Positions 1,684 to 54,225 of a stretch of DNA of 64,000 bases are shown piece by piece. Below the pieces are notes generated by a model, which saw only the letters and a list, made by a program, of their open reading frames with translations, was not told the DNA's origin and did no database searches. The stretch is from positions 126,501-190,500 of the forward strand of contig OZ020517.1 of the NCBI GenBank assembly GCA_963971425.1. Reading direction: 5' to 3'. Both the position numbers and the translations under genes were made by a program. This DNA comes from Bryoerythrophyllum caledonicum. Lineage: Eukaryota; Streptophyta; Bryopsida; Pottiales; Pottiaceae. How positions within the stretch are numbered: the stretch's first letter is position 1; every line of letters begins with the position of its first letter.

Positions 1684-4213
1684 AAAAAACGAAAAATTTG
1701 GGGTACGACAACCACCGACGACGAAATTCGCAAAGTCAGCTCGGAAAGGTGCTGTCCCAAACGATGCTGCCAATATTTTCCAAAATCTCAGACTCTTTCT
1801 ATTAGACAGAAATTCTATGACAAATCCTTTGAAGACAGAAAGGAGTATGCGATCTCGGTAGGCGGGCAATTCCACTCCATTGATGGGGACCGGAAGGGAA
1901 AGTACGTCACGCTCTTGGGAACGGAGGTCTGCTCCGTTGCATGGTACACGATCCATGGAATTCGGAAGTCCACGTTTCACACGTACATCGGACATTTCAG
2001 TAGAGGAATCATCAATGCAACTCACGATAACAAGGGCATCAAGCGCCCACGGCTTGCCACTATACAGGCGATGGGTTCAATGACGTCCATTATTAATGAC
2101 AACGCGGATCAAATGCCTCACCAAATGCGGAGTGTCGGGAATGGTCGGATTGACACTCTCAAGTATCTTCCTGCGGGAAACAACTGGAAGCAAATTCGAG
2201 CGAGCATCAATGATGTACGTTATCAGTCCCCGCATATTGCTATGGATTTGTATTCTTATTTCTCCGTCGACCGACGTCCTAGAATCTGAACCGGAGATCT
2301 TCGGCTGGGTCATTGTTGACATGCATTGACCTTCAATTGATTAACTCTCTACTTCGCATTGTCTGTTGGATTGTACTTCTGAAATTTTCCTCTCACTAGG
2401 TTATTATCTCATTTTGCAGACAAACGACTCCTACGGTCTTCGTCCTGTAAGTCAGTCCACCATTAGTAGGGTAAGAAAGGAATTCTTCAGGAATGTTGCT
2501 ATTAAGCCATCTGGAAGCACCTTCGCAAAATGCAGTACTTGCGATGAGTTTAATCAATTTTTACTGACGACTCCAAAGAGAACACCCGCATACAAGCTAT
2601 TCTATAGCAACAGGCAGGCTCACTTGAATCACCAACAATCATGCCGGAAGCTTTACGCGACATGGAGAGAGGAGTCGAAGGCGAAGCCGCTGACTTTTCT
2701 TTGTGTCATTCACGACAAGATGGACACTGCGAAGACGGCCCATCCACGCATGTGGAGGACTACTAAGGCGACATATGGTCTCGGACAGCTTCCCATGAAT
2801 GTCACCGGAATGGTGGCACACGGTCATGTCGACGGAGCGTATGCTCACTATGCTCCTGCTCTATGGCCTAGAGATTCGAACGCCACCATATCCTCTCTGG
2901 CAAAACTTTTTAGGCGGCTTGAGGGAGCACCATTACATGAGACGCGCGCGGTCTTTGAGCACCCACCTCCAAACTCGATGTTCGCGGCGCTTATGAGGGG
3001 AAAGAGCAGGTGCGTCGACGCTTTAGAGCCCGTGGAGCCCAGTGCTTTTAAGGGACCGAAACCGTTGCCACCGAAATTGTTTCTACAGCTCGACAACTCA
3101 GCGAAGGACAACAAGAACCAATATTTGATGGCATTCATATCACTGCTAACTGCTCGAGGTATTTTCAAGGAGATACATGTTGGCTTCTTAGTGGTCGGAC
3201 ATACGCATGAAGATATTGATGCTTACTTTAGTCATCTATCGAAAGAACTGAAGAAAAACAGTACATATATTCTAGCGGATTTGATGAAGGCATTCATGAA
3301 GTCATAGAAACTAGCCTTCATGCCGGAAGTTTACCAAGAGGTGGCCGACTTTAAATCTTACGTCGATGGCTACTTATGCAGTGGGGCGGCACGTCTGGTG
3401 GGACTAAGTGATATGCATCTTTTCAAGTTCTACATTGACAATGACGGTGTTCCGGTCATGAAGTTCAAGAAATGTGCCGTTGATGCAAAGTGGTTATCCA
3501 TGAACAGAGAGTCGATAAAACTCTGGAAGGTAGATGACAGTGGACGTCCCATGCTTCCAATAGGATCTCCCAAGCCCGTCCCTTTCAAGCCCATGTAGGG
3601 TAATGAGGAGCACAACCCGGTCGGAAAGCAAGATGTTGCCAGAGACAAGGCCAGAAAAGCAACGGAGAACAAAAACTTCATAAAGACGAGGCTTCAGAAG
3701 TACGTGGACTACTGGGCGTCCGGAATGTCTAAGTGCGCAGGGTATGCAGACTCCATCCGCCCATACCTGCAATACTGGAAGGACGTCATCGACGAGCTTG
3801 ACAAGCCACTTCCTCAATCGCCCTCTGAACTTGAAGAGGGATTCTGGCCTGCCCATGATTGGAGAGGCCCTCATGAGGGAGGTGAAAATCCGCTAGGATC
3901 GCTTCCACAACCATTGGATGTCACTCCAGAAGATGAGGTTCTCGAGCCTTACTGTGGACCCGCCAATGAAGCCCCAAAGTCCACATTTAATCCTTGGCGT
4001 GATATTTGTCTCGGGTCTTGGATTTTAGTTAGACCTAGTGATCCAGACATCTATCATGTCTAGCAGGGTAGAGCAGTTTTGGATGTCGTCAGGGATGAGG
4101 GTAATGTCAACCACGGAAAATTCCTCGTTAAGTATTGGGAGCCTGATAACAAGCAGAAGAATCTGAAGCGGAAGTACCAAGAGTGTTGGGAAGCCACTTG
4201 GGTTCCGGACCAA
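1684..4213 (+). pseudogene. DUF7869-type DDE transposase-like gene, decayed
   Basis: Exon 1 (from 1684, ending near 2265) reads a Cys-rich knuckle (RCCPKRCCQYF) and a helix-rich segment with SVAWYTIHGIRKSTFH. An intron of about 150 bp ends at TTTTGCAG (2412-2419). Exon 2 runs in one frame from 2420 to 4213 and carries a second Cys pair (KCSTCDEF) and three acidic blocks in DDE-like spacing: CVIHDKMDTAKT, FLQLDNSAKDNKNQY and VGHTHEDIDAYFSHL. The last two are hallmarks of DUF7869 proteins, which I take to be transposase-derived. Three in-frame TAG codons (3305-3307, 3596-3598, 4061-4063) break exon 2 without any frameshift; each fits CAG to TAG. The start codon is not identifiable, and the first donor (GTCGAC at 2266) is weak. 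Function is by family resemblance from memory. Confidence 0.72.
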
Positions 4214-13334: not shown

Positions 13335-16300
13335 ATGGTGAGGATGGGCATGGCGTCGCCGAACAGGTACAGTGCTGGATGCGTAAGCGCCTTTCTCAGC
13401 TTCTTCGATTGGACGCTGGGCAAGCGCTTCACCTACTCCACCAAGCGCCTCACCTCAGAAAAGCGTAAGCCCTCTCTCATGAAATAGGTTTACAGAGATT
13501 GAGGAAGGGGTTGCATCTGCAATGGTCATGCCGAAAGACTAGCAATAATGTAGAATTTCAATATCAGAAGCTTAGTTACAAGTGGATCATCGGAGAGGAA
13601 GCTATGCTCATGGTTATGATTTGTAATCGTAGAAGATCGTAGCGAGTTGTGAGATGCATTGACCCTGGAAGTATGATCATATTGGATTTTTCGGGTGTTT
13701 TTCCTGCAGAGAAGGAGAAGGTGTCGAGGAGATCGAGGAGCGACCACAACGCGCGCAGAAAGCCGTCACGAATGGTGACCATAACCTGCCTAAAACTCTT
13801 GCTTCCATGGAAATTTGAAGGAACAGCAGTGAGTTTTGTGTCAGTAGCTGCAAGGTGAGAGAACAATGACAGCATAACCTGTCTAGATCATCAACTCTCA
13901 ACAATTGCAGCGCTTAGAGTTTTGTGTCAGCTGCTGCAAAGTGAGGGAATGAATAATGGTCGCATTAAACCTTTCTAGACTTCTAAATTCGTGCCAGCTG
14001 CTGCAAGGTGAGAGAACAATGGTACTACAGCCTGTCTTGATCAACTCCCACTTCCACGGACCAATCTCACATAATACTAGTTTTGCGAAGAAGAATCCTG
14101 ATGCACTTTCCCTTTCTCAGATGTGTCAAAGTGGAGCGAATGTCGCGGTGCTGGATCACGCTACGCGCGCTCCAGGCGTGGTAGCGCGCCTCATGGGCCT
14201 AGAGTCTCTCCCTCAGCCCTACCACCGCCGTGCCCAGAGCGACACGCCGATCCTTCTCCAGGACCTCCTCAAGCGAGACCACAAATCTTGTCGGAGGGAG
14301 GAATCCAGACTCCGGAAGAAGAGCGCCTCCCTCCTGACGGCCTTCCGGTGCCGCCCGGAGGTGTTGTGTGTCTCCCCCGCTTGCATCGACAGCCGCTTCC
14401 TGTGCACCGTCGACCGAAGCCCCGCCCGCACCTCGCCGTTCCTGTCACGCCTGCCGCGAACGCCTCGTGACAAGAGCCCAACTGCACGATTTGAACTTCT
14501 GGAGGAGACTATCCCTGAGCTCAGCTTGCGTGCCACCACCGCAGGTTCCACTGTGTTGTTGCAGGGATGGCCGCTGGAGTCGCAGCGGATTGTTCCTCCG
14601 ATTATCTTTGATGGGGGTGAGGACGAGGAGCTGGATGTCACGTCCACCGCCGACTCTGCACCGGCGATGGGGAGCTACACAGTGGCGCTGGGGAGACGAA
14701 GAGGGTCAGGGATTAAACAAGAAGATCTGAGGAAGCCAGGGCGGGTGAAGAGAAGAGCGTCACGCGCACACGAGTTTGTGCCACCTCCGGGTCGTCACCA
14801 AAGTGGCAGCAGTAGCGAGCTTGTGTTCAAAACTACTCGGAGGCCTGCAGGATCAGGTGGGAAATTGCGTGACTCCAGCTCTAGAAGCGCTACATCTCAG
14901 GAGTCTGCAGGCTCTCACGTCTCTTTCAAAACTCCAACTAGTTTGTCCAAGACAGGGCGTGTGACGAGCCACCCAGAAGTAGAAGATGAGTCGAAACGAG
15001 TCGTTTCGTCACGTTCCAGGTCAAAAAAAACGAAGCCACCGTTGCCGAAGGTGAGGAATCAGAGAGTAGACGAGAAACATTCAGCAAAAGGAGCAGATTT
15101 TGCATCAAAAAGAGCAGCAGATTGTGCATCAGAAGCGGTATCATCTCAAAGTGGTGATATGTCTAGTAGCTATGGTGTCAAGTTATACAGTGACAGAGCT
15201 CCCATTCACGTGAAGAAGAGATCAGGTGAACTTGACCCATCTCCTGACGAGGTGCAAGATTTCGGCGCGAGGTTGACGCAAGGAAACTCCGCAGACGCGG
15301 CCACCCAGAGCAGCGTCGCTAAAATAGAGGATTCCGCCATGTTGTGGTTTAAAAAGAAAAACAAGAAGCATCACGCAAGAGCACGCAGCGCGGACGACGT
15401 GTTTCCCGAGCTTCCCTTGGAAAATCCAAAGTTCATGAGCAGCCCAGACATGGATTTCTCCACCGATTGCAAGCAGATATCCAGCAGTCCGTTGGTGGAT
15501 TTCGCCACCGGCGCGTGCTTTGTCGGCCGACTGAGCGTCTCCTTCAAGGACGTGGATTACGAGGAGGATTATGAGAAGGTGGATAATAAGAAGGGGGAGT
15601 ATGAGAAGGAGGGTTATAAGAAAGGGGATTATGAGGAGCATGAGGAGTATGAGGAGGATTATGAGAAGGGGAATTATGAGGAGCTCAGTGGTGTGTTCAT
15701 TTCTAAAAGTCCTTTGGTTGACTGCACTGAGAAGGTGAGGAGTTTTGAAGAGTCAGGTCCACTAGATAATTCTTCTGGTGGAGGTGATGAGTGTCGGAGT
15801 TGGGAGGATGAGGCGGCTGAATTGAGTGTGTGCTGCTCCGGGCCCTCTGTTTCATCTGGGAGCTTGCCATCTGATGTGGAGGATACTTGGAGCTCGTGTA
15901 CTGAGTCACATCCGAACCGTGGCTCCGACTGCCGTTCACCTGGACCGCTTGAGGTGAAACATACCGTGAGTTTTGGCCTCTTCTTTTCATTTGAAGTCTA
16001 TAATCTATAATAAGTTCAAAGAGGAAAGAGGCTAAACTTCATGGTACAACATCACCTCTCCTTTATTGTCAAAAGTGGCTTAAACTAGTTCTTACTTGAG
16101 TTGAGATACCACCAAGCTCTTTGATCTGATATCTAGTAAGAGTGAAAAAAGAGTAGTGTTATAAATAAAAAGAGGGGTGTCTTATTGATACCTTGGGTGG
16201 CTTCACAAATAACTCAAATATCCTCTCTGCATTCTAGCTACAGTTTTTCCAGACATATCATTTTGGTTTACTTATGTTGGTTGTTCATGTTGTTTTTCTC

Positions 16301-17554
16301 AGATTGCTAAGTCTACAGAAATGGAACTAGAGGAGGTGCATCAAAACTCGCCACCGACACAGTTTGTGAAGAAGATGGTGGATGCAATGGTGGATGAAGA
16401 ATTGGCTCCGCAACCAAGCCCTGTGTCCATCTTCGACTCGCCCTTCCAGGATGAGCCTTGCACTCCTCCGGAGCCCATCCTTACAGGTACATCATTACAA
16501 CATGAAGGTGGTGTTTGCCAGATGCAAATTCTAAGTGCAAGTCAATTTTATTGTCATTGTTCTTGCATTCTAATTTGTGTGGTGCGAAAGGGTATGTTGT
16601 GTTTGAGTCTGGTCAAATTTTTTATGAATCTGATCAAAGAGAGATAGCATAACCAACAAATATGGCCTTCTTTTCACAAAACACTTGAACTTTTCCTTTG
16701 TTCGGTAATACTTCAATGCCTACGCCTACGAGGCCCTGGGAGGTCTCTAGAATACACCACTTCAGGAGTAACTCGCCGGTCCAGTTAGGCGTTAAAGGAT
16801 TAAGTGAGCATCTATCGAGAGTTTTTTTGGCCTAATATTGTAGCGTGTCAAGATTGTATTGTAAGATTAATCATTGATAATGTTTCTAGGCTCTATACAC
16901 CAAAAGTTGAACTCTGAAGACGAGGAGCTGGGTACCTCAGTGAGCACCAGTGACAAGCTCCGGCAAGCGCTTCTTGACATCTCCATGTTCCAGGCCCGCG
17001 AAGACTCATGCACTACAATATTGGCAGCACCCTCTTGTGAGCCCAAGGACGAACGGAAGTTCATCCGCGGCATGCTCGCAGCTGCGAGCTTCCTAGGCCC
17101 TTCGTCGCCCGAGTGGCATGACCGCGACGTTGCGATTGACCCGTCGCTGTTCGACAAGCTCGAGAGCGGCGACACCGAGTTGACGTGCCCGCAAGTCTCC
17201 GGCGGGCTGTGGCGGTGCGACCGGAGACTCCTGTTCGACTGCGTGAACGAGGCGTTGCATCATGAAAAGGTGGAGGAAGGGGTGGTGGTTTGTAGGCCGC
17301 GGAGGGAGCGCCTCGTGGCAGAGGTGGGGAAATGGATCGATGGGCGGCGGGCGCTCGCGTCGCGTGCGGTCGACTCATTGATCGAGTGGGACATGGGGAG
17401 CCAGGTCAGGAGCTGGAAGAGGTTTGGGTGTGAAGTTGAGGAAGTGGGCGTGGAGGTGGAGAGGTCCGTTTGGGGAGACCTTCTTGGCGAGGTTGTCAGT
17501 GACATGGTTCGTGTGTGGAGGGGACACACTCTACTAAAAAGCGTGGTGGATTAA
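13335..17554 (+). CDS. TON1-recruiting-motif (TRM/LONGIFOLIA-like) protein
   Basis: Five exons fit by frame and splice sites: 13335-13464, 13710-13774, 14121-15965, 16303-16486 and 16890-17554, giving 962 residues with no internal stop. TRM proteins are known to bind TON1 and microtubules and to influence division-plane placement and organ elongation. Visible motifs: an N-terminal GCVSAFLSFFDWTLGKR block; VARLMGLESLP (DUF3741 motif) near residue 85; an acidic YEEDYEK-type repeat tract encoded at 15550-15690; PSPVSIFDSPF in exon 4, the conserved short TRM motif; and a C-terminal DUF4378 region with FIRGMLAAASFLG, RRLLFDCVNEAL and VWGDLLGEVVSDMV. Start chosen as the ATG upstream of the conserved N-terminal block. 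An alternative upstream edge for exon 3 would add sequence from about 13956. Probably the one functional host gene here. Confidence 0.87.
13837..14047 (+). repeat. Three diverged copies of a short block in TRM intron 2
   Basis: Copies start near 13837, 13916 and 13988 and share TGTCAGCTGCTGCAAGGTGA-like words followed by AGAACAATG and CCTGTCT(T/A)GATCA. They lie between exons 2 and 3, and each carries a potential AAGGTGAG donor, so they could shift splicing. Confidence 0.65.
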
Positions 17555-18470: not shown

Positions 18471-18829
18471 TAAATATTTTTTTATTCATTTTGAATTGAG
18501 TAATTCTTTGTTTTTGTTTCTTTGAGGGGATCTTGACGTCATAGAGTGAGAAAAGATCTACCTCAAAATTGAATATGAATTTCCATATTTCAGTTGTTGA
18601 ACCTTGATCAAGGGTTGCAATTGGCAAGGGTCGTGAATTTACATTGTGGGAGCAAGAAAAATATATTTCTAGTGACGAGGGGGTACTGGCTAAAGGCCAT
18701 AAGATTACTGCTTTTGGTGAGTGGGCATATGCTAATTTCAATGCTTCAGATTTTCATATGACTATTGATAGACTATTACAACAAAAATAATTGAATACTA
18801 CGTTAATTAGTGTGGGCAATCTAGGTGAT

Positions 18830-20492
18830 TTGAAGTGCATGAGAAAGGACCAATATCAAGAAATGGTGGCAGCTACTTTCATTTAGTTCACTAGAATATA
18901 GGAGAATGGGGTTGGTTTATCTCATGATCTTCTAATAGCTGCGACAAAGAGATTATATGCGTTGTTACAAAGAGTTGCAAGTGAGAAGGGGCTTCAATTT
19001 TCAAATGGGTGGGTAGAAAAGTTCAAGAAGAGATTTATGAGTAAGGGTTATCTTTGCCACGGAGTAGAAGCATCAATGAACAGTTCAAAAGCAATTTTGA
19101 AGCAAATGGAGGATATTAAGGCCATAGTATTTCGATACCACATTGGTGATATTTTTTACATAGACGTTGCTGGTTTTTTTAAAGATAGAACCAAATCGTA
19201 CTTTAGCTATGTAGCGAGTATCTTGGAAGAAGAAGCAGAAGGAGCGTATTACGGTCGCACTGATTGCAAATGGTGATGGAAGCATTTCCCTTCTTCCATT
19301 GATTATATATCAATATCTAAAGCCTTGAGCTTGCACTTTTAGGCACATTTAGAATCCAGAGAACTTGGATATTATGTGGACCGCTAAAAAGAAAGCATGG
19401 ATGACTACAAGGATTTTTGAACGGTTCATATTAGATTTCAAAAGGAGGATGGTGATGGTAGGGAAAGAGAAAATACTCTTACTTGTTGATAATTTTTCTG
19501 GACATCAAGTGCCAAATGTAGGTTTATGGATGAAGGCATTATTGCATCATTCTACACCCATTACCGGAAGTTGGTGATTCAACATTAAATATGGTAAACC
19601 CTCCAATAACCAACCAAAATCCATAACTAATGCAGATAAAATTAGGATATATCTAACCCTCTTCCATTCCATTACAACCAATTCAGCCTCAAATGGAGGT
19701 TTGCTATTAATCAAGACCCTTACTTTTGGTCGTTGATTATGGGAGGTACCTATTGCTGGCCACCCACTAAACATGGCTGCACAGTTTGAAAATTCATAAC
19801 TAATTCAATTTTAATTGGAAAAAGATTAAATCACTTGGCTTGGAATTGTAATTCTACTGGTTATCAACAAAAATAATAGTATAATTATCTCTTCTCTCCA
19901 TATATGCACATTCCTTAATTTTTTGGTTAAAGGAGGGCTTAGTTTAGATTGTATCATGGCAGAGAAAGATTTTGCAATTGACGTGTATCAAGCTATGATT
20001 ATGGCTGAGAGCATGGAGTAGTAGAGTTACTCTATCAATAATTTAGAATTGTTGGAGGCATACATGTATTCTTTCATGTCTTGTTGAAAATGAGAGGGAT
20101 GAAATTAGGCATTTAAAAGAAGGTGATGACGTTGTGGCTTTACTGGATAAGCTTTCATTGCTATCATCTTACGCTGAGGAAAGTGGCACTATGGTATTAT
20201 CAATTACAAGCTGGAGTTTGATCTAAATCAACTTTATAAACCTAGTGATAAAGATATTATAGATTCCCTACCCTCTAAATATCACGAATGTGATATAGAT
20301 GAGGTTTTGATAGATGATGATGATATGGTAAATGAAGTTGTAGGATTTAATAATGGAGAGTGTGCACTTGAGATGTTGAAGAAATTTTTGAACAAAGACA
20401 AGAACATTCAAGCACTTCAAAATAGAGTTTATTGTTAGCGTGTGAAGGAATCTCATCACACCACGATAGATTCTTTCTTTGAATTAGCTTAG
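18830..20492 (+). pseudogene. Tigger/pogo-type transposase pseudogene
   Basis: A CENPB-type helix-turn-helix remnant (GLSHDLL to GWVEKFKKRF) is followed by a DDE_1 region: FYIDVAGFF in the place of the first catalytic block, then KERITVALIANGDGS, and LLLVDNFSGHQ near 19480 as the second block. The tail near 20430-20490 ends with TTIDSFF, typical of Tigger-type C-termini. Two TAGs just before the N-terminal part (FIxFTRIxENG) both fit CAG to TAG. There are several frameshifts (about 19235 and in 19560-20100) and further stops, including TAG TAG near 20021. Part of the middle has been lost or replaced. Non-functional. Confidence 0.68.
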
Positions 20493-20604
20493 TTGAATTA
20501 CTATTCATATTTTATTGTACTTAAAAGTGTGGTTTTCAATATGTGTTATGAATTTATTTTTAAGGGTCTTATAAATGTTATAAACTTAAATTTGAAGTCT
20601 AATA

Positions 20605-22139
20605 CAGTCTAACCTTGATAATATCAAACTTGTTAATAGAACACCTTGATATTGTCACCCAAAACCTTGAAACGGATTTTCGTAGTGTAAAACTCCCTTG
20701 TTAATATCACTATCACCCTTGATAATATCACATTTTTTTTTCAAAATCTGTAGTGTAAGTGTGACAATATCAAAAATGGATGGATGAATAAGCATAGATG
20801 ATGTCCTATCTCGTCGGAATGTTGTACTGTGTGTACAAGTGAGGGTGATTTGTGGATGAAAAATGTGGGCAAATCATAGATATTGGTGAGGATGAGAGTT
20901 CTGGGAAGTGCGAGGGTTTCGAGCTCAAACCAGCATGACTTTGGAGAATATGAGGGTTTCCTTGCGGCGGCCGTTTTCCTGAGAGTTTCCTTGCGGTGGC
21001 ATTGTCCCGAGGGTATCTGCAAGCTGTGCCGGATTGTAAAGGTGGGGTCGTGATAAGTCCGCAGGTTGGGTCGCAAGTCGTTGGAGTGTGGAGGATGCGA
21101 TCAAGTCGTTGGGTCGCAGGTCTCAGTCGTTGGGTTGAATCATCATCTCAATCATGGCTTCTGGCAACGCGTAGCAATCAGAGTAAATCTCAATGTCGTT
21201 CTGGGACCTGCAGATGTCTTTCTTCAGAGAATCCAGAACCTTCTGTCGTCTCGTTTCCGAGGTGCCTTTGTTGTAATGCCCCTGGATCACTGCGAACCGA
21301 TTGTTGGTTTTCCGAAACAAAGCAACGACCCATTTGCTGCAGCAACCTGCTGCACACCCCCAACGACTTGAGTTACAATTCAACTCATGTGGGAGTAGCG
21401 ATTTTTTCCTAGTACTACAACGGCCCTTGAATTTGTAAATTGCTAGCAAATTGTTACTAGGTGTAGGAATCATGTGTGATCTTTAGGGTGGTACAGTACT
21501 GCAGTGGTGGATTGATTAGCTCGGGTTGTGATTGTGGATTGCTATGAAGGCCTTTGAGGTAGAAATGGGCCTGAGCGGTGGGTCACCATGAAGAATTATA
21601 TGCGTTGTTGGCTTAGGCTGTGATCCGGAATTTCCTACAGAGTTTTAACAAACAAAAATTCAGATGAAGAAGAAGCCGCTCCTTCCAGAGTGTACCATAT
21701 TTTTATAATTGAGACTTGCTGGAGGAGCGAGTGCTAAACCTGAGACCTTACATAATTTATATACGTTACACCTTGTCACCTGCTATGTCTCAATGATTAT
21801 TTCACATGAGGTCAGATAAGTAATTTATGTTAGGTCTCAATGAATTTACTAGCTTGTTATGTCCTAATATGGATGTCACTAACTAAAAGTGATTCATTTC
21901 TTTGGTTTTTGTGAGTTATGGCATCTATTGGTGATTTATTCAAGTTGGAAAACCAAGTGTATGAAAGTTTGTTGTTTTATTTAATTTTCGAACTTTTTTT
22001 TGGATTTTTTTGGGATTTTTTTTTATAATATCACATTTTGCCTAAAATTGCCAAATGTGATATTATCAAAATTGTCACACCTTGGTAATATCACACTTTT
22101 GGGTGAAACGGAGGGTGTGATATTAACAAGGTTAGACTG
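20605..22139. mobile_element. Pogo-type non-autonomous element, 1535 bp
   Basis: Terminal inverted repeats start CAGTCTAACCTTG and end CAAGGTTAGACTG, each next to TA (20603-20604 and 22140-22141), the target-site duplication of the Tc1/mariner/pogo superfamily. CAG termini are usual for pogo/Tigger. Inside both ends lie 100-180 bp of subterminal repeats rich in GTGATATTA/TAATATCAC in both senses, likely transposase-binding sites. The centre (about 20780-21420) is GC-richer and has no supported gene. The element starts about 110 bp after the adjacent Tigger pseudogene, so a related transposase may have mobilised it. Confidence 0.82.
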
Positions 22140-22141
22140 TA

Positions 22142-23594
22142 AATGTTATTTTTGATATATTTTATAAATTTATTTTTGAGATCTTATAAATGTTATTTTT
22201 GAGATCTTCTAAATGTTATTTTTCATATGTGTTATTTACAATAAGTGTTATGATTTTTTTTTGCACATGACCATTAACATTTAAAGGAGGTCGATTGTAT
22301 TAAGACATCAAAGTAGGGGTACTTAAAGAATAGGAGCCCGCTACAAAGAGGTTGTTGGAGAAAAGAATCTACACTATTCATTGGAGAAATACCATGAAAA
22401 CAGGTCCGGGATACCTTGATGATAACCAATGGTTGGAGGGGGGAATGCTATCTTGCGAGCAGTGAGCGGTGAGCGGTGAGCGGTAAGGGGTAAAAACTTT
22501 GAAGTGCATTTACTTCAAAAATGTAACTGAAAGTAAAATAAAAGGGCCCTCAAATCCTATAATATAGGGATTGATTTGTTATCCTGAAGAGAAATATTAT
22601 AATTTATTTGAAATGACTAAAAAAAAAACGGTCAGAGAGAACCCTATATCCGTAGACATTGTCCGTTGTGGGAAGCCCCAAAAATGTAATCGGAATTTAA
22701 GTATTAGATGACACCCGGCAAAACTGCTATGATATCCGTTAACAAAAACGGTTATTGGAGGGTTATCAAAGATATAGGCTGCCAACTCCATCAAGCTGAA
22801 TCAGAATGCGACAGCACAAATTAACATGGAAGGTAACTCCCTCTCCGGCTCCCATGTTGAGAAGAACTATGCTACCCACTTAAACACGATGCCTTTTCAA
22901 TCATAAGAAGACCAAGCCACTTTGCTTCACTATTCAGCAATTTCACTAACCGAAGTTGCGTCGACACACAACAGCAAGTGGACTACATTGACGACAATAA
23001 AACGAATTCAGACCATTACCACATCAAAGAATGTCCGCCACACTCGACATACGTCAAACCTAACATTATTTACAGGCAGATGAAAATTTGTCTTCAAGAG
23101 AGGTAAAGATCCTGCGAGCCTCTCCACTCGATGCAACCGCCTGCATTGACTCTGCTTCTACACAACACAAACTTCGGCAAAACAACAAAAATTTAAGCGC
23201 AAAACCCAGATTATAAACCATTTCATCACACCAAACCCACAACTGGAAAGTGGACCGTAGTCAAGTGCAATGCAAAATTTATTACGCCCGATTCGAATGC
23301 CAAACTTCAAGACTACGGTACCATACATGATTACTAGCATGTAACCTCACCACCCGCACAAAAATAAGCTTCCTCCAGCCCAACAGTTCCAGAATCACAC
23401 CGTAACAAGTATATACTCCCAGTAACTCCTCTCATACTAATTCAGCACGACCCACCTCATCTATCATAAGTCACATTCAAGGCCAATCAGCTGAAGATGC
23501 CATTCAGAGTCATGCATGTGTGATTTGGTGTAGTGACAAACTATTCACAACAACAAAAATTGATGCCAAGATACAGGTTGCACATCAAAATTAC
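22142..23594. other. Gene-free stretch with duplicated splice-junction fragment
   Basis: No independent gene. Bases about 22780-22835 repeat the intron/last-exon junction of the minus-strand gene at 23792-23845 (shared CTGCCAACTCCATCAA and CAGAATGCGACA). A short GTGAGCG run lies at 22455-22485. Otherwise nothing recognised; part may be the 3' untranslated region of the minus-strand gene. Confidence 0.5.
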
Positions 23595-26500
23595 CTAGGA
23601 AGAGGAGTTACAATAACTATCCGACGATGAAAGGAAATAGTCGGACTCCTCTAGTGCCTCGAGATCAAGAAAATCGATAAAACTAAAACCTGAACTAGAG
23701 AACGTGGATGGAGACGATGGGGAAACTACGTTTGACATCTGGTTTGCAGCTTGGCTAGCATACGAAAGAAGCAAGAAATCCCTTTCCGGTGAAGCTGCCA
23801 ACTCCATCAAACTGAAACAGAATGCGACACCAAAAATTAATATGAGGGAATATGGAAAGAACTGAAGTAAAATTTAATGTTGTGACTTACTTACTCAAGC
23901 GGTTTCTCTTGGTGATCTTGCGGATTGAGGGCTCTTCATCAATGGTAAGGTCCACGGTGGTGGGCTGAACGGGAGTGGATCTCGGAGGCTTCGGCATAAA
24001 AAGTGGCTTCAACACCGCCTCAAATACAACCTTATCAGATTCGAAGCCCACGAAATGCCGACCAACAGCGCGACACGCGCAAAGAGAGTTTTCTAGAGGA
24101 TCAGAAAGGATGAGAATTGTTCATACATAGAATAAAAGAGAAGCCTAAGAATAAAATCAGAGGCTAATAGATGGTAAAGCAATACATGTAGATGCAAATG
24201 CATCAAAGATCACAGCGCTTAGTTTCGTAAGGGACTCGAATAGCATTTGGAAAAAAATGACGCCCTTCTCCCGTCTAGCCCTCCAAGGAACATTACCGCG
24301 TATAGACTGGGAAGCGAAGTCATTGTGATTGAGAAGTGTAGAATGTGTAATTAGTTTTTGTGTTCACATGCGGATTAGAATTGGTTAGTTTCGGGAGTTA
24401 GCCAATTAGTTTCGTAGTTCAGTAGTAAGCTTGGGAAGTTACGTGAAAAGTTGGTTAAGAAGCGAAAAATCATGTGACGTTTGGAATCTGGAAGTTAGGT
24501 TCAGTTTTTGGATAAAGACTTTGTGGAAGATGGATTCGAGGCCAGACTGTGATAGTCGTAAGCCGGGGCAAGCTTGGTGCTACCTCTTTATTTTTCTTTG
24601 GATTTTTCTATTTCTTTGTGTAGGATTGTAATTAGATGAAGTATGAATGGAATTGGAGTTAAGAAAGTGTGACTGTGTGATTGGAAGCGAAGTTATGAGT
24701 ACTATATAAGAATTGTGAAGATAGAAAAGTTAGAGAATGGAATTGTGAATGTGAAGAGATTGTAATCTCTGTGAAAGAATTGGTTATTGAAAGTGATTAC
24801 GGGATATAATCACGTATTATTGAGTATACTATACTGTGATTACAGTGAAGAAAATAGAAATTGGCATGATTATGAGATCATGAAGGAAAGAGAATCGGAG
24901 AATAATTAGGTTTAGAGTGATGCAAGAGAGTAATTGAATGATAGTAATGGTTAAGAGAAGTTAGGAAGCAAGTGTGTAATCAATCGTGACAATAACATAG
25001 TGGCATTCATAGAAACATTCTTTCTCCGCGAACGAATCCACCTATACTGATTTGGTGCTTTGGGTTTATTTCCAATCCGACCAAAAACGATAACTACAAG
25101 AAGGAAGTTGGTCTCTTCAACTCCCCAACCAGTCTTTGGCAGCTGAGCATTCACAATGTATGTGAAGGACACCATTGGTAACACGTTCCTCACGTAGAGG
25201 AGGATACGGAATCGGTGGGATTGAAATAGAAAAGACATGGCAAATTATCAGAATTAGGTGGACTGTAAATAAAATATGGAGCACTGTCATTGATAAATAA
25301 TCACTTACCTTCATTGATGGATCAGTTGGCAATGCCAACGGTAATTCGGTAACATCCTACCAATCGCGAAGTAGCTTAAAATTGTATGTTGCAGCGTATG
25401 ACCGGACGTCGGTGCCGATTTGCACAGACTCAGGAATGATAACCATAATGCATCCTTGTTCATGAAGGAACGAATCAGCAAATTCAAAGAGGGCCTCAAC
25501 AATCGGTTCAGCATAGACATTCCAAGATGGAATGTCTTTTGCATCCCATGAAATAGATGGAACCCAGAGGCCTTCCGGGATGTCTCCAAGAATGAGATTA
25601 AAACCACGGTGGGGACATATTGTGCTGCGGGCCGTGTTCGAAATGGGAGGACACACCTGCAAGAACAAGAACTGATGAAAACTAGACTGAGAGTAGAGGA
25701 AGAGAATAATTGCATGTCGCAAATAAGGCAGTACATGATTTGAAGCAAATCATATGGTAGGAGAAAACAAGGCAAGGCTTCACCTTCAACATGAACTCAT
25801 TGAGTCGAACCATGTAGGGGTGGTCTTTTCGACCATTCATCATATCCTAGAAAAATGAGAGCTCAACTCTGATACCCATCTTTGGAGCAGACGTTCTCGG
25901 TGGAGAGAAGGCATTATGAAAAGCCTTCCTTTTCACCACATGGGATGGCTGATGCGGAGGGGACCCCGAAATCTCCGGAGCGGTTGAACATCTGGAAAGC
26001 TCTCGGCGACCACTGGAGCAGAGTCGGTCGCGGCGACTGCTGAGGGAATGACGACCTCAACTTCAGAGTCGCGAGATGAAGATCCTTGAGCCTTCTTTGT
26101 GGCAGTTTTGCCCTTACCCTATGATCTAGTTGGCACAGCAGCTGCTTGTGCATTTGTCTCCACCCCAATGAGCTCTGGTTGAATGTCATCTCGCAATGAA
26201 ATGTCAAAATGAGGCGGTTTCTGGACAGGGCAGTCCAGATACCATCCGCAGCGCTCCTAGTGCTGAGGACCCCAATCAACCTTGATACCCTCAGATATCA
26301 TCGTGGAAGGGCTCTTCGGATCCAGGTAGGATGCATAGAATGGGGGGTTGCGGATCACGGCCCTTGCCGGAATCAGGATGAACTTGAAGTAGCGGTATAA
26401 GGTACGCCGCAAAGCCAATGGAAACCCGCATTGATCCGTTGGTTCATAGTTCTTGTGAACGCCCTTGTCCACGTTGAACTCTCGATAAAATGTTGTATCC

Positions 26501-27219
26501 CACAGCTGAATCCACATTTCCTCAATGTAGTCCAAAATTCGCATGATTGGATCGCCAATATCTAGGTCGTAATTCACTTCAATACCAATATCCAGCAACA
26601 AGCCTTCCAACAGCCGCTCAGCTTCAATAGACAGCTGCGATAATGATTCAACGCTTTAGAAAGACAAGGTACTTATAAACTAAAAAAGAGAAAACAAAGT
26701 GAATGTAGAGTAGGTACCTGAGCCTACCACGTAGCTCGGTGAAGCCAATCAGGGAACTCACTGTCTGGAAACTTCGCCTTCGGAAATCTGAGAGATTCTC
26801 AAAGATTTCCATCTTTGTTCCAACTCTGTAGCCATGTAACTTTCATCACAAGATCCATGGCAGATGTCGCGAGCATAGAAAGCTTCTCCTGGGTCATCTC
26901 TGCATCGTCATCATCAGCCTCGTAATGAAGCTTGACTTGAGTAAGGAATGTTGGAGTGTACTTGGGATCTGCAACTGGAAGTTGCTTCCGTAGCTCCGAA
27001 AGGGTAGAGCCCTTCATCTTCTCAACGACTTTTCTAACGAAGTCGTGAGCATTTGTTGAAGTCCATTCGTTGGGATCCGGAAATCTCCCAGCAAACTTCC
27101 TCTGCGCCACCCCAGCTGCTTCTCCAATCTCTTGCTGCAAAAATTCGAAAAAATTGTCAAACACAACTCAAGACAGTTAGAGAAAACTGACGAGAAGCAC
27201 GAAGCCCCACTGAACAAAA

Positions 27220-27430
27220 AGGATTCGGCAGAGTGGGTGTGCCGCAGCCGGCACAGTCCATAAGGTTCATTAGTGTCCCAATTCTATGCCCCAAATCCAG
27301 GGAATCACGGATGGTTACCACAATATGAGCATTGGGAGGTGTGCCGCTGGCGGCACACCTACCAACGCACACACCGTGGACACAAAAGGTGACCACGGTG
27401 TGTGCTCTAGGAGGTGTGCCGCTGGCGATC
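27220..27430. repeat. Palindromic hairpin units inside an intron of the ParB/methyltransferase gene
   Basis: GTGTGCCGCTGGCGGCACAC at 27340-27359 is a near-perfect palindrome. It is followed by a second stem (CACACACCGTGG ... CCACGGTGTGTG) and another partial GTGTGCCGCTGG, and preceded near 27237 by GTGTGCCGCAGCCGGCACA. All lie in the intron 27135-27498. Related units occur at 29150-29316 and 33140-33590. Confidence 0.7.
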
Positions 27431-29111
27431 TATTTGACCTAATACAATTTAATGTGATACAAGACATTTGGAGTGAGCAAATGGATCCGAGGACATACCT
27501 GATAGAGGACGGAGTTGAAGGACTTCAACGTCAGCGTGTACCACGTCCTCTTCACAGAGTTTTGTTTTGCTTCAGCTGCATCGATTTCCGCCTTTGAGAC
27601 AAGTTTCTCAAAATAATTCAAAGGTTGCCCTGCCATACCTTGAATGCGGTAGAGCTTGTGAACAAGATTTGTTGACACAAAAGACTTTTGGTTTCGCCTG
27701 CAAATGTAGATCAATAAGCGATTAAGACAAATACTTTATTTGATGCAGAAGATTAAGACGTTCCGACACCATGAATTCTTACCAGTTTACTTGATGCAGC
27801 GCGGAAAGAAGGACTGGAACATATCCATTAACATTCAGTAGAATGGACTCCACCGCAAAATGCCAATTGGGATCATCACCATGGTCCCGGTTTATTACTG
27901 GCAGCCATGCCTGGAGCCGATGGTTGCCATCCCAGACATGAAACATCTTCCTTGAAAACACTCGCAGGTCTGGATCCGCATTCAACCTCTGCTCGAACGC
28001 CTGGTTTGCAGCAATCCAGGCCGGACTCCAACTCTTCAAGACATCCTCTGAGACATATACAGCCTTCCCCTCGTGATTCTCAGTCGCAATGTAGAAAACA
28101 CCTCAGCCTTCCATGTATCCATTCTTTAGAAAGTGGGAACCAAACCCCATGACATCGTTCTTCAAGTAAGGTCGAACGATGGGCAGCCCAATCATCCGGC
28201 ACAAAAGGATGTCAAGCTTTGATTTCTCTTTCGGCTGAAATCGAAGTCCATCCAGCAGCGTTGTCGTATTCACTGTTTCTTTTTGAACCAGATCATCCAT
28301 CTGCTTCTCCAAATCCGCAGCCAAAAGTGGTTTTGAAGATTTTCATTCTGATCTTGAAACTTCATCAACATCCTCACTTTCCCCCCATCTTCATTCAATT
28401 CCTCTGCGGGAGAACTCCCTGCCAAAACAAAGTTATTAGTGGGTGAAATCACAGGTCAATGCATAATTTGCTACACTTTAACTGATTACCTAATGGATGC
28501 AAAGCTGAGTTCAAGGAGTTGTGTGTCTCCATTTTGGTATCTGCTTCTTCACCTCGAACCGACGCACCAGACTGGCTTTGCTTATCTACAATGCAATGAA
28601 AGATAACATTAGATGACATAGAGGAGAATGACAGAATGAAGGAAGGGGAAGTGGAATGATGGAAAATGTACTTCATTATCCTAGCAAACAGTATTGAAAG
28701 CCACACGGCGAACGATAATACCAGACAATTTTTATTTTCTGGAATTCAAAGAAAAGGTAACATTCCAAAATTTAGGTCAAGAGCAGAAAGAACAGTTTCA
28801 TTGACTCTAACAGCAACGAAGGGAGCATAAAACCAAAGCAAGGACTCGGATTCACGAAAACCGAGACATAGCCCAAGAAACTAGTCACATCCAATGCTAG
28901 TTCATCAACATTTGCGGGACTTAAGTATTGTGTAATCACACAGCGGTGTGTGGAATGCCTAAACAACAATTGCAAAGATTAACTGGCAGATCAAGAGCTC
29001 TACCATCCACAATATCCAGAATTGGTTGGATAATTCCTGCCGCCAGATTGTCCGTTTGAGCGACTACCATAAACCCTAATTTCGACGTAGTTTGCGAGGG
29101 TTTGCAATTGC

Positions 29112-29320
29112 AGGCACTAAATCCGCAAAGTCGCTGTCAACATTAACAGAGACTTCGCAGATGCGGTGCTGGCGTGGACACACCGTCTGCCGTGAGCTAT
29201 CTAAATGAACCCAAAAAGCTTACATGGAAGGTGTGCCGCCGCCAGCACTCCATCCGCCAAGTCCCTGTCAATGTGGACATGGACTTGGCGAATGGAGTGT
29301 CTACGGCAGCACATTTTCCG
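29112..29320. repeat. Pair of related hairpins near the gene's 5' end
   Basis: The larger stem pairs CACTCCATCCGCCAAGTCC (about 29247) with GGACTTGGCGAATGGAGTG (about 29283-29301), flanked by GTGCCGCC/GGCAGCAC. A smaller relative at about 29119-29175 pairs CCGCAAAGTC with GACTTCGCAGATGCGG. They lie in the first intron of the candidate gene model and share the GTGCCGCC-type outer word with the 27.3 kb units. Confidence 0.65.
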
Positions 29321-29459
29321 CGCAACCTTTTCTTCATACAATACGGGGTTCCCCTCTCCGCCAATTCCCTACACCCTAACGCAGTCAAATCTCAAACAAA
29401 AAGCATATGAAAATCACACCTGAGGATCTCGGTGCCTGGTTTGCTTTGCCGCCGTCCAT

Positions 29460-30839: not shown

Positions 30840-33800
30840 ATGCTTCACCTTCGAGCCAGTTCAAGGAGGACCCCTTGTTCCGTCTTGATTCTCATCATTT
30901 GCAGCTTTGTTTATTGCTTAGAATGGCTTCCTTGGCGGATCATGAGGCGGGATCCGTCGTTATTCGTGGAGATAGTGCATGCGTCCCGATCTGTTTCTCT
31001 ACTGATTGCGACTGTTAGTTCCCTTCAATTAAGTCAGCGTTTCCATATCATTGAGGGGTCCTTGAATGTTGAGAAAGAGGAATTTGATGAGTTTACGGAA
31101 GAGCTCACACACACTTTAGCTCAGTCATCTTGTAATCGAAACAACGCTGTAGTCTCGTCACTTCGGTGTGGAAAGTACAAAGTGTATGGAGCTAGGGAGG
31201 TTCCTGACGATTCTCCTTCACTTTCCTTAACACCCAAGTTGTCTACCACTGCAACTCAGGTGACGCCTTTGATGCAAAAAGTGAAATTAGAACCGGTAGA
31301 GAACTTGATTCACATCCTTAGCGATGACTCCGACAGTGACAGTCTAGGTTTTAGTCCCTCTGAATCCGAGAAGAAAACGTCACTTCCGGCCATGGCTCCG
31401 GCAACGGCTGCCAATTCCTCTCTACCTCCAAGATCCAAACCCACGGTGATTCCTTATCCTCTTCAATCTTCTAGTACTATCGATTGTCTACGTAATCTTT
31501 AGTCCCAATCCAAATCAAAATCTGTTTTGACAAAGGTAGATTTTGATTCCATTAGAGTTGAGAAGGTTGACTTCCTTCCAGCAGCTTTCAATGGAGATGT
31601 CCTCTTCGAGCTTCCGCCCCTTGAGAAAGGAATTGCTTTGTCACAGGCTAGGTCGCTCTTGGGTATGGATAAGAAACATGACAGACATAGTTGGACAAGA
31701 ACCATGACCACTCACATTGCGAATGATTCGAACCTCACCTTAAAGACATCTTCATGTTTGGAACATTTGCAATGTTTCAATCCTCAATGCAAATACTTGG
31801 AGCGGGAGCATAGAGCGTCAAACGTTAATGAGACCGAATGGGAGGGCATGTCGTCATTAGTTTTTGGGGTCAATGGGGCTTCTCCTGTTGGTTCAACAGT
31901 TGTCTGCAAACTTTGCCGAGTTCAGCCTACCTGCTTAGAAACCTGCCTTGCAAAAATTTACTATGTGCTGGGAAAGGACACCATGTCCCGTTTATGTGTC
32001 CATATTGGAACACATGAGCATCCTATTAAATTAGGCAACTGTCGAGATTCCTCCACAAAGTTGAAGACCCTGATTTCTGAGCAAATAGAGCGAACTCCAA
32101 CTGCCACAAACTCTGCCATTATTTAGGAAGCAAGTCAAGAGTTTCTTGGTGAGCTATTGTTGTATCCAGAGGGAGTATCACAAAAGCCACTAGTCTTAGA
32201 GAAACTAGTTCTAGTCTTGGAGAAATTTAAGCAAATGACATCTCCTAGTATTCGAAACGAGGTTACAACTTTTAGATACTTACGACGCTTTGGTGTAATG
32301 GATAGCATCACTAAACTTTGGGGATCAAGCAACTAGGCTTTCGTACAGGAGAATAGATTTCCTAGGCAAGGCGTTGATTTGGACAAAGTATTTGTGTTTA
32401 AGATGGCAGAAGTTGGTCCTGGCAGCGGCGTAGATCTTGTGAAGCGAATGCAACCTGGAGGAGACCTTGAAGATTTATGGATCGTGTTTGACCATGTCAA
32501 AGGAGAAAAGGGATGGACCACAATGGGTTGTCATGTGTAAAATTCAACCTACTACCGTGTGATGACGATTGCTATATGTGACATTCAATCCAAGGACGTC
32601 AAAGCTCAGCTAGTATTTTGGAAGAACTTGAATGCAGTTGCTACACGACATGATGTTTCATTCAAGGAATTCATGGCTGATAGCGCACAGGCCAACTGGA
32701 ATGCAGTCCGCATTTTTTATGGGAGCGGTGATGCATCAGTACGAATGGAAAATCAAGAGAGAATGTGCCTTTTTCACTGGACTCAATTCCTTGAAAAGCA
32801 CACGAAGGCTGACATTAGAACCGACCTTCAAGAGCAACATCGTCAGCTTTGCAAGTTGTACAAGGATGCAAAGACAATGGAGGAAGCCGAAGCAAAGTAC
32901 TTGGCAATCAAAGCGTAGTGGTTATCGTCAAGCGCAACATCTCATGCTGGTGCCGTACGTCTTGATTTATGGTTAGCCTTCTGGCATTTTTGATGTTGAC
33001 AATGGGGTGGGTTTATGGTATCCGTATGTTCTATTTTCATTCATGCCACATAGATTTTATAATTGCTGAATTTTTTTTGATTGAATATCCAATTATTGAC
33101 ATATTTGGGCACCATTGTAACGGCACTCTGGATCTTGTTGTCTGAGAAAGTGTGCCGTCACGGGCACACCCTTCCTGTGTAGACCTTGATAGTGAGTATT
33201 GTGCCACTTGTTAAGAATATGCAGTCAAGGGCATACCTACTTGTTGTGATACATACACCTTTGATAGGCTTCAAGCAGACTTATCTACCTGTAAAGGCAC
33301 ACGTATCTTGAGCGATTAAACCGCTTCATGTAAGCCCACCATTGTTCTCTGCCGCCAGCGGCACAATAGATTGGCCATGTGCACTGCGTCAATTTGGAGT
33401 CCTTCACAATAGATGCTCCGTATTCTGTCCCTTCTCTTGGCGATTATTTTCACTCATCGGAGCAGTTTTCAATTGACTTCCAATTTCCTCTAGACCTCCA
33501 GTTTTTAATTTTCCATTTTTTAAACCAGCCGGCCCGTGTCTTCTAGCTTGGAAAATGGATGTGCCGCTATCGACACAACTTCCGTTGGTTGGACCTCTTT
33601 CTTTGTAATGGCCTTACTACTTCTTCCTTTTCTTTAAGGCAGACCCTAAATTTTGGAAGAACTTCTTAGCACGTTGGCTAGCTTCGTCGTCTTGCTCTCG
33701 TGGATTGGTCGCAATCCCCATTTTATGATTCTTTTCTTACAAGTTCATTGATCAAAATTTCTTGATTGAGGTTTGCAGGAACTTACAGGTATTGAATTGG

Positions 33801-34819
33801 CTAAAATGCCATCTTGCAATTTAGCGAAGATTGTCCACAATAAGAAGTTGGAGCAATCGGAAAAACGTGGAAATGATTTATACGTTGCCACTATTGATGA
33901 TATGGTTCGAGCATTCATGCAAGTCGTGGCTTACTATCAATACTCAAAAGGAGAGCGAGGAGGACAAGGGCCTGGGAAGGAAGAGCTTCGACTTCGTGTT
34001 GCTCATTGCATTGCTCAACGTTCGGGGAACTCCAAAGCACTTCATGAGGCTTTCTGTAATATGCCTGGAGCTGCTGAGCTTTGCACTCGCCCTCCGCATT
34101 TGGAGGGAGAAGAAGTCTTCTTGTCCCTGAAACGGAAGCCTGACCTTCCTCCTGGATCTGAGTTTGATTCTCATCGTCCAGATAAAATCAGCGTTTCACG
34201 TCCCAGGGTCACGACTAGGGCGTCTTCACAAATTACCGTGGACCTTACTACAGACGAGTGTGTGTATTCAACAATAGCGGAAGCTCTAGCCAACCCCGCC
34301 AGTCTCCCTTGAACAAAAACTTCAGCAAGGGTAATCCATATTGTGGGTGTTTTAGAGACTGCCTATGACGAAAGCAAATGGCATATTGCAAGGCTGCCTG
34401 GGACATCAGCGAGAGCCTGTTTTGCCCAAACTGGCACAAAGAAGAAGTGTACTGCTCGAATTGTGCAGAACAACAAGAGTACCGCCGCACCGACCTATAG
34501 TGCAATGATGAAGAACTACAAGAAGACAAGGCTTGATAGGATGCAATTTTTCTTTTGTAACAATGACATCCATTGCTATGTGATGGGATCTAAGAGGAAT
34601 TAGGTTCTTTCTAAGCCAGCGGTCCCTGGCATTTGGTTGGTGAAAGCTGGCACGTCCCTTACGAAGGCCGAGATTCTACGTCTTGGAAATGCCGGTTTTC
34701 GACTCACCGAGCGCGTAATGCTCTCTCCCCGGAAGTTGATCTCTCAGGATGGTGCATTCATTGGCCCTCTTGTCCGTTCTATACTCCTTCCGAATCATCT
34801 TGTATTTCTTCTTGCATGA
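30840..34819 (+). pseudogene. MULE-like DDE transposase gene, decayed
   Basis: One frame runs from 30840 to about 33010 without any indel; an intron ends at TTTGCAG (33778) and a second exon runs in one frame from 33779 to 34819. Motifs in order: a Cys-rich segment (CFNPQCKYLE, VVCKLC near 31770-31915), HIGTHEHPIK, then a MULE-type catalytic region with IVFDHVKGEKGWTTMGCHV, FMADSAQANWNAVR (D at the second site) and CLFHWTQFLEKHTK, ending WLAFWHF. Nine in-frame stops, all fitting C-to-T in Gln or Arg codons: TAG 31500, 32124, 32334, 32916, 34601; TAA 32538; TGA 32991, 32997, 34310. The second exon holds LSLKRKPDLPPG and a C-terminal Lys-rich part. From memory, related genes occur in mosses; their role is not known to me. 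Confidence 0.75.
33010..33778. repeat. MULE-gene intron with scattered palindromic units
   Basis: The intron contains GTGTGCCGTCACGGGCACAC (about 33143-33162), GCCGCCAGCGGCAC (about 33351) and GTGCCGCTATCGACAC (about 33571), all versions of the GTGTGCCGC hairpin word also found in the ParB/methyltransferase gene. No coding sequence. Confidence 0.55.
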
Positions 34820-35949: not shown

Positions 35950-36980
35950 CGAATTTGGAGGAAAGGAAAATAATTGAGCGGGACAGAGACAAGGGAGAGA
36001 AGATTAGGTCACCAGAGAACATCACGAACACAAGCACGAGGAGCAGGAGCAGGAAGAACACCACGATTATGAACACGAGGAGCAGGAGCAGGAAGAACAC
36101 CGCGATCACGAACACAACCACGAGGAGCAGGAAGAACACCACGATCACGAACACGAGCACGAGGAGTACGAACACAAGCACAAGGAGCAGGAAGAACACC
36201 GCAGTTATGAACAGGAGCACGAGGAGCAGGAGCTGGAAGAACACCACAATCACGAACATGAGCACGAGGAGCAGGAACAGGGAGAACACCGCAATCACGA
36301 ATACGAGCACGAAGAGCATGAGCAGGAAGAACACCGCAATCACGAACACGAGCACAAGGAGCAGGAGCAAGAAGAACACCACAATCACGAGCACGAGGAG
36401 CAGGAGCAGGAAGAACATCGCAATCACGAATACGAGCACGAGGAGCTGGAAGAACACCGCGATTACGAGCACGAGGAGCAGAAGTAGGAAGAACACCGCG
36501 ATCACGAATACGAGCACAAGGAGCAGGAGCAGGGAGACCACAAGGAGCAGGAGCAGGGACACCACAATCATGAACAAGAGCACGAAGAGCAGGAGCTCGA
36601 AGAACACCGCAATCACGAACACGAGCACGAGGAGCAGGAGCAGGGAGACACCGCGATCACGAGCACGAGGAGTAGGAGTAGGAAGAGCACCGCAATCACG
36701 AACACGAGCACGAGGAGCAGGAAGAACACCGCAATCATGAACATGAGCACGAGGAGCAGGAGCTAGAAGAACACCGCAATCACGAACACGAGCACGAGGA
36801 GCAAGAGCATGGAGAACAGCGCGATCACGAACACGAGCACAAGGAGCAGGAACAGGAAGAACACCGCAATCACGAACACGAGGAGCAGGAGCATGAAGAA
36901 CACCACAATCACGAACACGAGCACGAGGAGCAGGAGCAGGAAGAACACCGCAATCACGAACACGAGCTGAGCTGAGGAAG
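35950..36980 (+). repeat. Degenerate minisatellite, units of 30-48 bp
   Basis: About 25 imperfect copies built from CACGAACACGAGCACGAGGA, GCAGGAGCAGGAAGAACACC and GCAAT. Most unit lengths are multiples of three, so three frames stay largely open: plus NTSTRSRSRKNTAIT (261 codons), plus HEHEHEEQEQEEHRN (interrupted by TAG near 36486 and 36671), and a hydrophobic antisense frame of 245 codons. No start context, domain or splice signal identifies a real protein. The His/Glu frame resembles low-complexity tails and may have been coding; the antisense frame is best read as an artefact. Confidence 0.75.
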
Positions 36981-53668: not shown

Positions 53669-54225
53669 TAAGCCTCCAACATCATTAATGTACCCTCCAA
53701 TAAACCACCTAACCTCCAATCAAACCAATGTCATTTATGTAACCCCCAATCAACCGCCTAACCCATTAATAAATAATTTAAGCCACCAATGTTATGAATG
53801 TAACCTTCCAATCAACCATCTACCGGCTGCCATGTCTTTACTCACCCCGTTGACTTTGCCCTCCTTATTCCTATCTATATTCCAGTCTTCCATCATTGAT
53901 CCCCCACTTTTGCATTCCACAGTTGTTGGTGAGTTTATGCCGCACTTGGTTTTTTGGTGTTCAGTTCTGTTTTCTCAGATACTCCTTGCTTTTGGGCTGT
54001 CGCGCACAATGATATGTTAATTCGAGTTTCAGTATCTTCTCGCACTGATTCGGCCTAGCCTGCGTCAAGCCTAGACTCACCTTATACGGACCAATCTAGG
54101 GACCCAAAGGATGGACGTCTTTTAACCGATAAATTATCATCATCATGGATTCAACAATTCATGGATGTTAATAGCATTGTTTTACTTCTCAACGGGGCCG
54201 CTTGAGTTGTAGTTCAAAAAAAGAA

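Follow-up and report, generated by a model that had tools for sequence, protein, structure and literature searches.

What does a gene that appears to join a ParB-like domain to an amino-methyltransferase-like domain do in a plant genome? Such a gene lies on the minus strand of a 64,000-nucleotide stretch (hereafter the window; positions 126,501 to 190,500 of contig OZ020517.1, assembly GCA_963971425.1) of Bryoerythrophyllum caledonicum (Bryopsida: Pottiaceae). Here we report that it belongs to a decayed copy of a two-gene DNA transposon of plant type, with inverted repeats and 10-bp target duplications, and that this transposon has been moving recently; near-identical copies with open exons persist in the genome. 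We further propose, with a probability of about one half, that the ParB-like part of the encoded protein binds palindromes of the element and that the part with the methyltransferase fold marks or shields the element's own DNA.

The initial annotation, made from the letters of the window, had described minus-strand exons in compatible frames, damaged by seven in-frame stops and two frameshifts. On re-reading, the exons were present at 29459-23595 where it had placed them, with the motifs it had named, and the counts of stops and frameshifts agreed. The parts of the gene are given below; percentages are identities to c1 and b8, two other copies of the element in the same genome.

29420..29459, minus strand: exon 0 (E0) of the ParB-methyltransferase gene, with ATG and MDGGKANQAPRSS; its phase-1 donor suits exon 1
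28490..28585, minus strand: exon 1 (E1); splice phases compatible
27783..28418, minus strand: exon 2 (E2), ParB/sulfiredoxin-like domain, PIVRPYL...VWDGNHRLQAW; 44 relatives, structure model and fold matches
27499..27697, minus strand: exon 3 (E3); 76% to c1, 65% to b8
26718..27134, minus strand: exon 4 (E4), two stops; 60% to c1, 67% to b8
25784..26634, minus strand: exon 5 (E5), three stops and a frameshift near 25985; 49% to c1, 53% to b8
25309..25656, minus strand: exon 6 (E6), LILGDIPEG at the motif-IV position, one stop; 52% to c1, 59% to b8
25098..25220, minus strand: first part of exon 7, acceptor AA; 39% to both c1 and b8 over 41 residues
24313..25097 (edges approximate), minus strand: largely G-poor stretch splitting exon 7, which is unbroken in other copies
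24186..24312, minus strand: second part of exon 7 (E7b), motif I VIFDAFAST; 58-60% to c1 and b8, hhalign probability 93% when joined with exon 8
23891..24092, minus strand: exon 8 (E8), GRHFVGFESDKVVF and VDLTIDEE; hhalign match, counterpart in c1 and b8
23595..23811, minus strand: exon 9 (E9), C terminus; 37% to c1, 48% to b8

By our reading of the letters, splice phases agree from E0 through E7, and on these phases and the shared exon order, the exons probably form one transcript; exons 0 and 1 had no tblastn match in c1 or b8. Exon 2 carries a frameshift near 28335 and one TGA, and its ParB/sulfiredoxin-like residues are read from 28321-27782; about 400 residues separate this domain from the methyltransferase-like one. 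Further damage to the window copy includes the acceptor AA before E7, a TAA codon at the E7b/E8 junction and the splitting of exon 7 by roughly 770-790 bp of largely G-poor sequence. Exon 7 is contiguous in all six other copies read (c1, c2, b8, A9, A3 and B1), and in c1 the matches that flank the interruption are only 18 bp apart. Rfam and tRNA scans found nothing. A 51-bp direct repeat, 90% identical (22778-22828 and 23794-23844), duplicates the exon-9 acceptor region just outside the gene.

That the gene might be carried by a large mobile element, and that living relatives might exist in the same genome, was borne out on both counts. A search of the genome (437 Mb, 894 contigs) with the ParB exon gave at least 150 scored matches out of 1,735 candidates, a number that may count places twice, as equal scores occur on C10 and C64 and on C15 and C35. 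Nine matches had an identical score, and the five of these that were fetched share a sequence of about 12.2 kb with sharp edges and 98.9-99.8% identity to c1. At the edges lie the inverted repeats GGGGATTGCTATTTTGCGTGCC and GGACGAAGCTATTTTGCGTGCC, followed by GAGCGGT repeats. Exact 10-bp target duplications were found by script in all five copies; two element edges had been shifted by 1 and 4 bp after the end sequences were viewed and before the duplications were counted. The copies b8 and b10, which belong to another group, have the same kind of ends, with 10-bp duplications read by eye. Window exons 2-9 and both large exons of a divergent plus-strand gene have counterparts in c1 and b8, and the exon stretches tested in these two copies (E2-E8 and both exons of the plus-strand gene) contain no stop. 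Decay in place of a host gene was rejected, given a near-identical multicopy element with target duplications. The remaining parts of the window copy are as follows.

31038..32949, plus strand: main exon of the divergent transposase-like gene; 61% to c1 and 66% to b8 over about 630 amino acids
33774..34810, plus strand: later exon of the transposase-like gene; first part 76% to c1, 72% to b8
22440..22487, plus strand: terminal inverted repeat on the methyltransferase side, GGGGAATGCTATCTTGCG...GAGCGGTGAGCGGT; 83% to the c1 left end over 48 bp, E 1e-9

Terminal inverted repeats were not detectable from the window sequence by itself, and the second end of the element was not found in the window. 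Tandem repeats with several open frames span about 1 kb (36016-36967) near the place where the window copy should end on the transposase side. The main exon of the transposase-like gene contains five in-frame stops in the window and is open in c1 and b8. By our reading, the protein has DHVK, DSAQANW and CLFHW blocks as well as clusters of Cys and His, which may bind DNA. Pfam gave no match above the cut-off for the window protein and none at E 10 for the b8 protein; a match of the window protein below the cut-off, at E 0.15, was taken as chance. Mutator-like (MULE) transposons have terminal inverted repeats and duplications of 8-11 bp, and the ends of the present element, with inverted repeats and a 10-bp duplication, are of this type. 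The plus-strand protein looks to us like a Mutator-like transposase, with which the length of the duplication fits. Both genes encode VDLT-type stretches (23936-23958 and 34235-34257), detected as an inverted repeat, which we take to resemble SUMO-interaction motifs.

The 28 kb exon (exon 2) was searched against protein databases by itself, since gene callers used on metagenomes would pick up each exon of such a gene separately, and had 44 relatives (E 1e-72 to 5e-13). The ends of 37 of these were readable: 18 stop precisely where the exon does (last residue W or R), a Tyr continues in 15, and 4 do neither. The first two patterns correspond to read-through of TGG and then a GTAA or GTAT donor, so the position of the intron after exon 2 looks conserved among the relatives. 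Two of the other four, P0040 and P0041, run straight into exon 3 without an intron; they are 37-41% identical, lie on contigs of 727 and 539 kb, and their hosts might show an older form of the gene. The predicted structure of the exon (predicted local distance difference test score 89.5) matches ParB/Noc/sulfiredoxin folds in Foldseek searches, and in the search of viral folds the top match was a ParB-like phage protein, followed by a phage DNA methylase. The ParB/sulfiredoxin superfamily has a G-x-H-R or G-E-R-R box; VWDGNHR or MWDGNHR occurs in 39 of the 44 relatives (one regular expression) and GNHR in 42, the other two being without it. None of 45 rows matched the Pfam ParB family at E 1, and four matched DndB weakly (best E 0.0012). 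The model and the fold matches support the ParB/sulfiredoxin-like fold that had been suspected for exon 2.

Searches with longer or other pieces of the gene returned little. The joined read-through had no match at E 0.01 among 5.8 billion proteins, presumably because the database contains the relatives as exon fragments, whose lengths lie outside the range searched. Pfam, PHROGs and NCBIfam gave no match for pieces of the ParB-methyltransferase gene, and sequence searches of the PDB gave one match at E 0.58 and otherwise none. With a short-pattern prefilter, no relative was confirmed at tblastn E 1e-3 in viral contigs (queried with the ParB exon, exon 6 and the ParB alignment) or in prokaryote contigs; viral contigs queried with the transposase under such a prefilter gave nothing either.

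The methyltransferase-like domain was resolved by a part of exon 7 missing from the initial exon list. LILGDIPEG does stand at the motif-IV position, as that list had it, while the true motif I, VIFDAFAST at 24213-24187 in E7b, had been overlooked. Exon 8 of the window copy by itself matches amino-methyltransferases weakly, and a first hhalign run without E7b gave a probability of 44.6%. Joined across a 93-bp intron, E7b and exon 8 align over 52 gapless columns with the DPFxGS...GRxFIGIE region of YhdJ and eight enzymes from phages at 93% (P 2.5e-7), with 0 of 100 shuffles as good. A five-row family profile, built with five other genomic copies, matches nine enzymes over 203 columns (97.3%, P 2.1e-11, 0 of 60 column shuffles); the alignment is collinear and puts the motif-IV position ahead of motif I, the beta-class order that had been predicted. 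Singly, the E6 and E7 pieces of the window copy fell short of significance (24 and 67 of 100 shuffles, the E7 piece containing part of the interrupting stretch), and exon 6 queried singly found no protein relative. As a family profile, E6 gave P 0.009, a probability of 4% and 0 of 60 shuffles, and its motif-IV position aligns with DPPY of amino-methyltransferases. This position reads DIPEG in the window, DIPDG in c1, DFPDG in b8, DIPEG in A9, DIPKG in A3 and DVPEG in B1; motif I, aligned to DPFaGS, is DAFAS[TI]G in c1, b8, A9 and A3 and DATAATG in B1. Together the profile matches support a predicted beta-class amino-methyltransferase fold for the 3' exons, a fold relative rather than a proven methylase.

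A candidate target for such a protein lies within the element itself. An inverted-repeat scan of the window suggested a palindrome common to introns of both genes, TGTGCCG-N4-CGGCACA. With up to 3 mismatches allowed, the window has seven sites (1.07 expected), all within 27.2-34.4 kb. In a motif-blind search it was the strongest palindrome of the element: the 23.5-34.9 kb interval has 5 sites, and none of 60 shuffles gave more than 2. The following sites carry it (the palindrome has no strand).

27238..27255, no strand: palindrome TGTGCCG-N4-CGGCACA in intron 3, exact match
27340..27357, no strand: palindrome in intron 3, exact match
29232..29249, no strand: palindrome in the exon 0/1 intron, within a long imperfect inverted repeat, 2 mismatches
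33151..33168, no strand: palindrome in an intron of the transposase-like gene, 1 mismatch
33348..33365, no strand: palindrome in an intron of the transposase-like gene, 1 mismatch
33560..33577, no strand: palindrome in an intron of the transposase-like gene, 1 mismatch

Its core, TGCCG-N4-CGGCA, was followed in 33 sequences of the element, namely the window, c1, b8 and 30 loci that surround group-A exons, all of which contain at least one copy. With spacers of 0-12 allowed, the spacer is exactly 4 in 218 of 220 occurrences, and the flanks of the core vary for the most part by subfamily (GGTG..CACC, GGGG..CCCC, GCAC..GTGC). All 26 core sites of the window, c1 and b8 lie within the element and outside mapped exons, and none of 192 sites at the 30 loci falls within the ParB exon. 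Genome-wide, there are 1,046 exact matches to the long palindrome and none to its reversed control; by our tally, 45 of the first 50 palindromes listed lie within 10 kb of a scored ParB-exon match (150 copies scored). Chance palindromes were rejected on the shuffles, the window expectation and the reversed control. The element thus carries clustered palindromes with an invariant core, outside its mapped exons. Distances between palindromes cluster at 64, 75, 106 and 139 bp. Helical phasing is suggestive only: 155 distances gave R 0.64 at 10.6-10.7 bp, and the 46 distinct distances, from copies that are related, R 0.30 at 10.6 and 0.34 at best.

The palindromes could instead serve the transposase or the introns, as hairpins, in splicing or as a transposition enhancer, and be unconnected with the ParB-like domain. 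They do sit in introns of both genes, where they form long inverted repeats, and the Cys and His clusters that we read in the transposase-like protein may offer a means of binding. A near-constant spacer between varying flanks, however, resembles the site of a dimeric protein, a hairpin role would not fix the letters of the core, and the transposase more likely uses the terminal GAGCGGT repeats, so that we regard this explanation as improbable. Very improbable, in our judgement, is a role of the protein in transposition itself (target or end synapsis, or copy number) and none in epigenetics: its gene is divergent from the transposase-like gene in one element, which would suit such a role, but the palindromes are internal rather than terminal and the methyltransferase fold is conserved.

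In the reading that we prefer, a two-gene transposon acting on its own DNA, the ParB-like domain would recognise the TGCCG-N4-CGGCA palindromes and would load many copies of the protein onto the element. The methyltransferase-fold domain would then mark the DNA of the element with N4-methylcytosine or N6-methyladenine or, if catalytically dead, would shield it; the outcome would be weaker host silencing, or the recognition of new copies as self. A more specific form of this proposal is put forward tentatively: in a parS-like self-recognition, the protein may bind the clustered palindromes, perhaps on one face of the helix, spread from them and mark or shield the element from silencing, with protein and site flanks diverging together between subfamilies.

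Several points weigh against the preferred reading. The Foldseek E-values of the ParB exon are modest, the best being 0.016 in the PDB and 0.003 in the viral set and none at or below 0.001. The 33 element sequences are related and not independent; L010 lies in the window and is counted twice, and some are near-duplicates. Binding of the palindromes could belong to the transposase rather than to the ParB-like domain. The beta-class consensus is (D/N/S)PP(Y/F/W) for motif IV, whose aromatic residue stacks on the target base, and DPFxGSG for motif I. All six copies read have D[IVF]P[DEK]G in place of DPP[YFW] at motif IV, without the aromatic residue and one of the prolines, and motif I departs from DPFxGSG as well, reading DAFAS[TI]G or DATAATG. 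Catalysis is doubtful because of these departures and may have been lost.

The protein could accordingly be a catalytically dead fold, a palindrome-bound shield or anti-silencing factor like the VANC proteins (PMC5735166), with S-adenosylmethionine or DNA possibly as a ligand only. The altered motif IV, found in the window, c1, b8, A9, A3 and B1, is not the decay of one copy, since it is common to copies with ParB exons 63-86% identical to that of the window, and the available text on VANC provides a precedent. A dead fold, on the other hand, need not retain the residues that are kept here: the Asp of motif IV in all six copies, the Asp and last Gly of motif I in all five copies other than that of the window, and the Glu after GRH in the window, c1, b8, A9 and B1 (exon 8 of A3 lies outside the stretch). 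We consider a dead fold somewhat unlikely.

The preferred reading of a self-marking or self-shielding transposon has parallels in known systems. According to the available part of one report, the Sola1-1_Ec32 transposon of Ectocarpus encodes a ParB-methyltransferase accessory protein opposite its transposase, for which the authors suggest binding and modification of its own transposon, and they cite transposon proteins of green and red algae (PMC12477816). ParB-methylase transposon proteins have thus already been reported in algae, and the present element varies a known kind. As described there, both combine a ParB-like with an N4/N6 methyltransferase domain in a single protein about 1,000 residues long, in a DNA transposon and on the strand opposite the transposase (PMC12477816). 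The present element differs in its plant host, its length of 12.2 kb and its 10-bp duplications, and its non-canonical motif IV and clustered invariant palindromes, the candidate sites, may set it apart further.

In the accessible text on Arabidopsis, VANC proteins cause a loss of methylation and bind short motifs that cluster in the introns and upstream regions of the VANDAL elements that encode them (PMC5735166). The present case is similar in that the protein is encoded by a second gene of a DNA transposon, that a short motif is clustered in non-coding parts and that the targets differ between related elements; the VANC21 motifs, in contrast to the palindromes found here, are arrayed in one orientation (PMC5735166). 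No sequence relation to VANC was noticed; the window gene had no Pfam match, and no direct comparison was made. Phage and bacterial ParB-methyltransferase proteins have the same two domains, whereas those of the present gene are split by introns and separated by about 400 residues. Bdelloid N4CMT is likewise an amino-methyltransferase of bacterial kind in a eukaryote but, as far as the source was available, is a host gene with a chromodomain, whereas the present gene is transposon-borne with ParB; the Marchantia N4 enzyme is described there as being without extra domains, unlike the ParB-fused, transposon-borne protein reported here (PMC8885841). In the literature covered, which largely excluded subscription papers, no land-plant ParB-methylase transposon, candidate binding sites or altered motif IV were found, and a paper on Mutator elements mentions neither ParB nor methyltransferase (PMC6446971).

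Other features surround the element in the window. An element of 1.5 kb at 20603-22141, whose 27-bp inverted ends (TACAGTCTAACCTTG) are 93% complementary, is probably a small DNA transposon; beside it, at 18600-20450, is a degenerate coding-like stretch that by our reading resembles a CENP-B/pogo-type transposase. Open frames of DDE_1 transposases are found at 54175-55131 (E 6e-11) and 62412-63575 (E 7e-24), and a DUF7869 protein at 2345-3307 (E 5e-39) is probably another transposon protein. The window also contains a plant-type gene with VARLMGL and DUF4378 domains (13953-17554), in keeping with a plant host, and tandem repeats (139-1077; unit about 39 bp by eye) in which several frames are kept open.

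Near-identical copies whose exons are open, subfamilies that have diverged and more than 1,000 candidate binding sites are all available in this genome, so that the marking or shielding by a transposon of its own DNA is now testable. If the protein acts on these sites, it would be a site-directed epigenetic tool of bacterial type in the hands of a plant transposon, used against or alongside host silencing by 5-methylcytosine. With the aromatic residue of motif IV gone from all copies read, it would also be a case of a methyltransferase fold kept for another purpose.

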